In this document: positions 37,232 to 39,053 of the stretch, piece by piece
How positions within the stretch are numbered: the first letter of the stretch is position 1
Layout: every line of letters starts with the position of its first letter
Source of the DNA: Pseudomonadota bacterium
GTDB taxonomy: Bacteria; Pseudomonadota; Gammaproteobacteria; Xanthomonadales; Rhodanobacteraceae
Direction: 5' to 3'
NCBI GenBank assembly: GCA_029561145.1
Contig: JAKQJM010000006.1
Coordinates: 1-52,660, forward strand
Length of the DNA: 52,660 nt
Translations under genes and position numbers: made by a program
Notes under the pieces: model-generated
The model's database searches: none
The model's input: only the letters and a program-made list of their open reading frames with translations
What the model was told of the DNA's origin: nothing

Positions 37232-38095
37232 TCAGGCGACGAAAAGGGCGCGCATCTTCTTCATCGCGTTGGCCTCGACCTGGCGGATACGCTCGGCTGA
37301 CACGCCATACTCGTCCGCGAGTTCCTGCAAGGTGGCCTTCTCGCCATCGACCAGCCAGCGACGCTGGATGATGTCACGCGAGCGCTCATCCAGCCGGGTC
37401 AGGCCGCGATTGAGCGTGTCCAGCGAGGACTCTTCCTCGGAGTCATTCTCGATGGCATCGTACGGGTCGGAGTTCTGATGGTCTTCGAGGAACATCACCG
37501 GCGAGGGGCGGGCATCCTCGTCATCGTCGGTCGGTGCATCGAACGCGATGTCACGGCCGCTCAATCGCGATTCCATCTCGCGTACGGTCGCCGCCGGGAC
37601 GCCAAGCTCGCGCGCCACCGTGTTGACCTCCTCGTTGTTCATCCAGCCGAGGCGCTTCTTCGACTTGCGCAGGTTGAAGAACAGTTTGCGCTGGGCCTTG
37701 GTCGTGGCGACCTTGACGATGCGCCAGTTGCGCAGGATGAACTCGTGCATCTCGGCGCGGATCCAGTGCACGGCAAACGACACCAGACGCACACCCTGAT
37801 CCGGATCGAAACGCTTCACCGCCTTCATCAGGCCGATATTGCCTTCCTGGATCAGGTCGGCGATCTGCAGGCCGTAGCCGGCATAGCCACGCGCGACGTG
37901 AACGACGAAGCGCAGATGTGACATGACCATCTTGCGTGCCGATTCGATGTTCTCGTTTTCGAGAAAGTCCCGAGAAAGCGCCTGCTCGTCTTCGAGACTC
38001 AGCATCGGGACGCGGTGAACCGCCGAAATATAGGCATCAAGGCTACCCAGCGGGCTGGGAACCGGGAAATTGCTGGTGATTACAGCATGGGTCAT
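37232..38095 (-). CDS. rpoH: Heat-shock sigma factor RpoH (sigma-32)
   Basis: A 287-residue sigma factor (E. coli 284). Region 2 has [38 protein letters not shown], the sigma-32 hallmark RpoH box [10 protein letters not shown] follows, and region 4 ends with [30 protein letters not shown] at 38095 is chosen because GAGGA lies 7 nt upstream; an ATG at 38113 lies upstream of that site. A perfect CIRCE operator sits 28 bp before the start codon. It belongs to the ftsE-ftsX-rpoH neighbourhood conserved in gammaproteobacteria, here with a response regulator and ung in between. Confidence 0.97.
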
Positions 38096-38123
38096 GCAGA
38101 TGTCCTCATTCATGCAGCGAATT

Positions 38124-38150
38124 TTAGCACTCGCATGTTAAGAGTGCTAA
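38124..38150 (-). promoter_or_regulatory. CIRCE element (HrcA operator) upstream of rpoH
   Basis: TTAGCACTC-N9-GAGTGCTAA, an exact match to the CIRCE consensus with the canonical 9-bp spacer; the arms extend two bases further as T:A pairs (38122-38152). On the minus strand a possible promoter, TTAGCA-N18-TAAAAT, uses the two arms themselves as -35 and -10, so HrcA binding would block polymerase. CIRCE in the transcript leader can also destabilise mRNA. No hrcA, groE or dnaK gene is in the window. Confidence 0.93.
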
Positions 38151-38345
38151 AAGCCTCGGGGAGTTCCCGGGAAACACGGAGTTGCATCTATAACTGAACT
38201 GGCCGGTATAGTAGCCCGGAATCCATTAACGCGCAGTAAGCAATCCGGCAATTCCCCGTGAACAATCCTGCGTCGGTCAGCCGTTTGGACACGTTTGGAG
38301 TGGACTCGCCGGAATCAACCGTTACCTCCGGCACAGCGACGGGGC

Positions 38346-39053
38346 TCAGGAATCGACCCGATCTGTCCTTGCCGGCACGCGCCAGTCGATCGGGACCTGA
38401 CCGTTCTCGACCAGGTAGGCGTTGGCCCGCGAGAAGTGGCCGCAACCCAGAAAGCCGCGATGTGCCGACAGCGGCGACGGATGCGGGGCCTTGAGGACCA
38501 GATGGCGCCGGCTGTCGATCAGGCGGCCTTTCGCTTGCGCGTAGCTGCCCCAGAGCATGAACACGAGATGCTCGCGCTCGCGGTTCAATGCCTCGATGCA
38601 GGCATCGGTGAAGCGTTCCCAACCCTTGTCCTGATGCGAGCCGGCCCGGCCGTGCTCGACCGTCAATACGGCATTGAGCAGAAGGACGCCCTGTTCGGCC
38701 CAGGCGACCAGGTTGCCGTGATCGGGGCGCGGAAGCTTGAGGTCGCGAGAGATTTCCTTGTGGATGTTCTGCAGCGACGGCGGTATCGGCACACCGTCGC
38801 TGACGGAAAAGCACAGCCCATGCGCCTGGTTCGGACCGTGGTAGGGATCCTGACCGAGGATGACGACCTTGACCGCGTCAAAGGGCGTCGTGTCGAGCGC
38901 CGCGAAAATCCGCGAACTGGGTGGATAGATGATCTTGCCGGCGGCCTTTTCGGAGCGAAGAAACGCCGACAGGGCGTGCATGGCCGGATCATCGAACGCC
39001 GGCGCCAGACGCGACTTCCACGAGGCGTCGAGGCGGACGCGATCCTCGCTCAT
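38346..39053 (-). CDS. ung: Uracil-DNA glycosylase, family 1
   Basis: A 235-residue enzyme (E. coli 229) that removes uracil from DNA. Catalytic motif GQDPYHG (67-73, Asp69), FS near 82-83, LLLNAVLTV, and the DNA-intercalation loop [10 protein letters not shown] (His191) are all present. Its ATG overlaps the stop of the response regulator gene by 4 bp (ATGA), so it is translationally coupled to it. rpoH follows downstream on the same strand but has its own control region. Confidence 0.96.

Follow-up and report, generated by a model that had tools for sequence, protein, structure and literature searches.

We identified an exact CIRCE operator just upstream of rpoH, the gene of the heat-shock sigma factor sigma-32, in a window of 52,660 nt (the whole stretch of DNA that was analysed) from a gammaproteobacterium of the family Rhodanobacteraceae; the same arrangement is found in nearly all sampled genomes of its family and in the majority of those sampled from its class. 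We consider it quite probable that HrcA represses rpoH through this site, a functional operator built into the promoter region of the gene, and that the sigma-32 gene is a direct target of the repressor beside groESL. Comparative genomics lends good support to control of the sigma-32 gene by HrcA, which we regard as very likely; in addition, the operator at rpoH appears to be fused with two promoters, one of the sigma-E type and one of the sigma-70 type with an extended -10 (Table 1). Control of the heat-shock response is commonly described as following one of two designs, based either on a repressor (HrcA) or on a sigma factor (sigma-32). If our reading is true, HrcA would stand above sigma-32 in a single cascade in roughly three quarters of the class families sampled, and the E. 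coli circuit would be a reduced form of it.

The operator is the only CIRCE match in the window with up to three mismatches allowed, and no match at that tolerance occurred in any of 100 dinucleotide shuffles of the window, which rules out a chance origin. By eye, the same palindrome continues beyond the consensus, its arms lengthening to 11 bp (TTTTAGCACTC/GAGTGCTAAAA). Downstream of it, on the minus strand, lies rpoH, which scores 427.5 bits against NCBIfam NF005143 and 400.9 bits against the RpoH (sigma-32) equivalog model TIGR02392 (cut-off 323.1). Its longest open reading frame begins at an in-frame ATG at 38113, 18 bp upstream of the ATG at 38095; the rpoH start of relatives aligns with the latter codon, not with the former, and a Shine-Dalgarno-like run precedes it, so we take 38095 as the likely start. 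The first-pass annotation of this DNA had described a perfect CIRCE lying 28 bp before the rpoH start and overlapping a possible promoter: the match is indeed exact, the distance is right for the ATG at 38095, and the overlap stands as well, except that probably two promoters, rather than one, are involved. The minus strand of the window between 37232 and 41606 appears, by eye from the translations, to encode an ABC ATPase (ftsE-like), an ftsX-like protein, a two-receiver-domain protein, ung and rpoH, in this order; in E. coli, ftsX lies directly before rpoH.

Table 1. Features of the rpoH upstream region (positions in the window; sigma-factor assignments are predictions)
Feature	Position	Strand	Remarks
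CIRCE operator, exact consensus TTAGCACTC-N9-GAGTGCTAA	38124..38150	.	0 mismatches; palindrome extends to 38122-38152
Sigma-E type -35 box, GGAACTC	38161..38167	-	class footprint; nearly absent at groESL sites
Sigma-E type -10, TCTTA (last TC of left CIRCE arm plus start of loop)	38139..38143	-	spacing 17
Candidate sigma-70 -35, TTAGCA (first six bases of left CIRCE arm)	38145..38150	-	
Candidate sigma-70 extended -10, TGC-TAAAAT (end of right CIRCE arm plus AAT)	38121..38126	-	18 bp from the -35
Predicted sigma-70 type start point	38113..38114	-	weak A enrichment at class offsets 36-37
Distal -10-like element, TACTAT, in the column of the family-conserved TACNAT	38208..38213	-	weak here; -35 not clear in the window
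Shine-Dalgarno-like GAGG before the ATG	38104..38107	-	by eye
rpoH coding sequence	37232..38095	-	likely start ATG 38095, from relatives and the Shine-Dalgarno-like run
ung, uracil-DNA glycosylase, upstream neighbour of rpoH	38346..39053	-	

The source assembly (3.6 Mb in 149 contigs, 99 % complete) contains one hrcA gene (320.2 bits, cut-off 197.2), one RpoE ortholog over the cut-off (325 bits), and two CIRCE sites with three mismatches or fewer: the rpoH site and a site with one mismatch before groES (recognized by eye). Neither of them belongs to dnaK, and the 1.5 kb before hrcA contain no CIRCE (best match, 7 mismatches); thus the hrcA operon would sense HrcA only by other means, plausibly through sigma-32. 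Elsewhere in the class, CIRCE was seen by eye within about 150 bp before hrcA in at least 28 of 57 genomes, an arrangement absent from the source genome.

We then compared rpoH upstream regions at two taxonomic depths. Of 59 genomes of the family, the source genome among them, 58 gave an rpoH match in a protein search (the one missed, G037, is 85 % complete), and matching of rpoH and CIRCE positions placed a CIRCE just upstream of the gene in 56 of these 58; the upstream stretches of the other two (G006 and G055) lack it, with best matches of 9 and 8 mismatches, despite the presence of hrcA. The class sample comprised 115 genomes, one per family, of which 109 had rpoH (108 besides the source genome) and six without a match at the threshold were left out. 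CIRCE was found in 81 of the 108 rpoH upstream regions at three mismatches or fewer, and in 70 at one or none, which rules out a peculiarity of one lineage. The best match per region had no mismatch in 41 cases, one in 29, two in 5, three in 6 and at least six in 27; when each region was shuffled once, the best match always had at least five (shuffles of class regions, in this search as in that for sigma-E like patterns, were mononucleotide shuffles).

The presence of the operator follows that of the repressor. Among the 108 class genomes, 77 have both hrcA and the rpoH CIRCE, 22 have neither, 5 have hrcA only and 4 have CIRCE only (Fisher p = 2e-14); the 82 hrcA calls include four partial matches under the cut-off (G110, G130, G152, and G159). 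The joint loss of hrcA and of the rpoH CIRCE is the strongest evidence that HrcA reads the site, and from their co-occurrence across 108 families we judge control of rpoH by HrcA to be very likely. The site combines the CIRCE consensus near a promoter with an hrcA gene in the same genome, conservation upstream of the same gene, and loss together with hrcA. Exceptions to the pairing amount to 9 of 108 genomes in the class and 2 of 58 in the family; we count against HrcA control the hrcA-bearing genomes without the rpoH site (two in the family and five in the class) and the four class genomes with the site and no detected hrcA. One of the five, G145, was counted as lacking CIRCE and has a degenerate rpoH site with an 8-base spacer. 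The first-pass annotation had named the absence of hrcA from the genome and the lack of the motif upstream of rpoH in relatives as grounds for rejecting its reading; neither applies here.

An alignment of the 81 class sites, anchored on the operator, revealed three conserved blocks outside the palindrome arms: GGAACTT at -16 to -10 (block 1); T[AC]A as the first three bases of the loop (block 2); and [AT]AT directly past the right arm, followed 7-8 bp further by a weak enrichment of A (0.22 and 0.32 bits; block 3). All other upstream columns to -48 hold 0.28 bits or less. The consensus of sigma-E and sigma-70 promoters being known, blocks 1 and 2 together read GGAACTT-N16-TCTMA, the form of a sigma-E promoter, with the -10 half within CIRCE; block 3 turns the right arm into an extended -10, TGC-TAAWAT, for which TTRGCA of the left arm, 18 bp away, would serve as the -35. 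Of the 56 class sites that carry the box, 46 have a sigma-E type spacing of 16; the window, one above this mode, has an imperfect copy that we nevertheless assign to this promoter type (GGAACTC, spacing 17). A scan of the window for the sigma-70 promoter with extended -10 gave 9/12 matches (mean in shuffles, 0.1). In addition, the family keeps a distal promoter-like pair, TGGACA/TACNAT (30 sequences), with TGGACA present in many relatives.

CIRCE sites at groESL provided a control for these footprints. GAAC at the fixed offset occurs at 56 of 81 rpoH sites in the class versus 1 of 36 groESL sites, and TANNNT at the right arm at 70 of 81 versus 4 of 36 (4 of 40 groESL regions had been dropped by the groES pattern, though each has a GroES-like frame by eye). 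Within the family, GAAC is found at 29 of 30 rpoH sites and at 0 of 33 groESL sites; here the rpoH count covers 30 loci, with five further regions of undetermined orientation uncounted, and two of 35 groESL regions without groES by pattern were dropped. A third comparison used a named collection, in which, among the matches listed, rpoH lies downstream in 97 of 119 stretches (64 of the first 80), 96 of them with enough flank: GAAC was present at 77 of these 96 rpoH sites versus 0 of 22 other sites, and TANNNT at 93 of 96 versus 3 of 22, again among the matches listed. That scan required an LDAYI-like codon pattern, so it gives no estimate of frequency, and the collection partly overlaps the family and class samples. 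The groESL controls, in family and class, rule out that the flanking motifs are general features of CIRCE. The groESL operator has a footprint of its own (36 class sites, L306-L345), with TTGACT and TATNAT just upstream and the last T of the latter forming the first base of the operator; this distinct footprint suggests that the two targets are connected to HrcA in different ways.

The GAAC box also tracks rpoE. Of the 81 class genomes with CIRCE, 80 were searched for RpoE (G122, which has the box, was left out); it was over the cut-off in all 55 genomes with the box versus 14 of 25 without it (p = 4e-7). Conversely, the box is absent from all 11 tested genomes that lack an RpoE over the cut-off; among these is G158, which has a 213-bit match just under it. 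The box is missing from 25 of the 81 class CIRCE sites, 14 of them in RpoE-bearing genomes. In the 27 class regions without CIRCE, a sigma-E like pattern was found in 6, versus a mean of 0.5 and a maximum of 3 in shuffles, although two of the six lie far from the gene. By eye, the palindrome before rpoH is decaying in two genomes without hrcA, G118 (L233) and G059 (L254), with the sigma-E like box and the promoter side kept.

It is conceivable, if rather unlikely, that HrcA represses rpoH and that a single real promoter overlaps CIRCE, the other footprint being a by-product, e.g., of flanks that tune HrcA binding. Such a reading would fit the partial independence of the two footprints (48 of the 81 class sites have both, 22 have TANNNT only, 8 GAAC only, and 3 neither), as well as the fact that TGCTAA is already given by the right arm of CIRCE. 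However, the rarity of both footprints at groESL makes them hardly preferences of HrcA, and the link of GAAC to rpoE and the weakly A-rich spot at the expected sigma-70 start likewise speak for two promoters fused with the operator, the reading that we prefer.

Two further explanations would deny the site its role as an operator of rpoH, and we hold both to be improbable. The site may be a relic, or may bind HrcA without effect on rpoH, a reading for which the distal promoter-like element conserved in the family could speak; yet 81 of 108 families keep the palindrome exactly or nearly so, with little conservation in most columns beside it, and it has decayed in lineages without hrcA, such as G118 and G059. 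A shade less credible still is that the inverted repeat works in the mRNA, as a stability element or a thermosensor hairpin, and not as a DNA operator. A CIRCE in the leader reportedly affects mRNA stability in Bacillus subtilis; but at rpoH the loss of CIRCE follows the loss of hrcA, and the predicted proximal start points lie within or past the repeat, so that the transcripts would lack one or both arms. As for a rewiring peculiar to the source organism, which the absence of CIRCE at rpoH of E. coli, the textbook case, might have suggested, the 81 class families that carry the site refute it.

The operator consensus and the repressor family are those of the known HrcA/CIRCE regulon (groESL and hrcA-grpE-dnaK-dnaJ), from which the present case differs in that the target is a heat-shock sigma gene and in that the rpoH operator itself carries -10 elements, whereas the groESL promoter lies upstream of its operator. 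A survey of beta, gamma, and epsilon groups by Permina and Gelfand (2003/4) may already describe CIRCE at rpoH in those groups. A study of Agrobacterium tumefaciens is said, by its title, to concern differential and independent roles of RpoH and HrcA; both circuits are present in one cell, as here, but as independent systems according to that title, not as a cascade. In Geobacter sulfurreducens, a prediction published in 2004 places an exact CIRCE at position -51 relative to rpoH (PMC545781, Table 8); this is a single prediction in a delta-proteobacterium, and the parts of the paper available gave neither promoter anatomy nor a co-occurrence test. The rarity of CIRCE at rpoH that the first-pass annotation had implied is thus mistaken, since one such site is already published and most genomes of the class sample carry it; its cascade holds up in part, HrcA control of rpoH being very likely from the co-occurrence. 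Beyond PMC545781, the open-access literature, in the limited portion covered, yielded no CIRCE at rpoH and no fused promoters, which is not proof of novelty. What is added here is the anatomy, i.e., an operator apparently fused with two promoters at rpoH, and rarely so at groESL.

From the sequence, its conservation, the co-occurrence with hrcA and rpoE, and the rpoH-specific footprints, we infer the following course of binding, repression, promoter use, and timing. A sigma-E (RpoE) promoter would take its -10 from the left arm and the loop, with its GGAACTT -35 immediately before them, and a housekeeping promoter would take its extended -10 from the right arm. HrcA on the palindrome of 27 bp would therefore keep RNA polymerase off both promoters, for which a single dimer could suffice. 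GroEL is an activator of HrcA, and in Bacillus subtilis the CIRCE regulon is known to receive its input from GroEL. Chaperone titration or heat inactivation of HrcA would release groESL and rpoH jointly, and the newly made sigma-32 would then raise other heat-shock genes, dnaK included. Envelope stress would add sigma-E polymerase, effective only with HrcA inactive; the fused operator-promoter hence predicts that sigma-E raises rpoH from that promoter only when HrcA is off. The co-evolution of hrcA, rpoE, and the rpoH region should be traceable through their gains and losses.

Published work bears on this circuit in both directions. In Campylobacter jejuni, the DNA protected by HrcA spans 30-40 bp and includes the start site, and the authors of that study consider steric repression likely (PMC7464140, consulted in part); a footprint of that size would cover both proximal rpoH promoters. 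During nitrogen starvation of Xylella fastidiosa, hrcA rises four-fold at 2 h and rpoH two-fold at 8-12 h (PMC3224663, likewise in part), which is not what simple repression by the level of hrcA predicts, the comparison being one of transcript levels. In addition, HrcA need not be the sole control of rpoH in the family, given the distal promoter-like elements, from which some transcription might pass or stop at the bound operator.

The rpoH region of E. coli K-12 contains GAACTTGTGGATAAAATCACGGTCTGA, that is, GAACTT-N16-TCTGA, with the spacing of the commonest class pattern, and no CIRCE within 7 mismatches (best match, 8). We take its GAACTT-N16-TC element to be the sigma-E promoter P3. To our knowledge E. 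coli has no HrcA, and it was absent among the control genomes that matched the hrcA model. We lean slightly towards the view that, in the ancestor of much of the class, one 27 bp palindrome at rpoH served as HrcA operator, sigma-E -10, and housekeeping -35/-10, one repressor dimer gating envelope-stress and basal input to sigma-32; the sigma-E promoter of E. coli would then be a remnant after the loss of HrcA, and its HrcA-free circuit would be derived.

We also asked whether the rpoH operator is generally stronger than the groESL operator. In 39 of 47 family genomes, the site at rpoH matches the consensus more closely than the other CIRCE does, with 3 reversed and 5 ties; the other site was verified as groESL in 30 of these 47. 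This count omits 12 of the 59 genomes: G007, G021, G022, G032, and G036 (three or more sites); G026, G047, G010, and G033 (no second site at 2 mismatches); and G006, G055, and G037 (no rpoH site or match). In the class sample the rpoH site is closer to the consensus in 8, farther in 9, and tied in 23 of 40 genomes; the claim thus fails as a general rule and was dropped. Upstream of rpoH in G065 (L265), which has no RpoE over the cut-off, two CIRCE-like palindromes stand in tandem by eye, and the one farther from the gene carries a mismatch. Two family genomes have an extra CIRCE away from rpoH, at G007:C4:48554-48580 (L180, no mismatch) and G021:C1:5105061-5105087 (L182, one mismatch); the short stretch around each shows no groES by pattern, and they may be further targets of HrcA.
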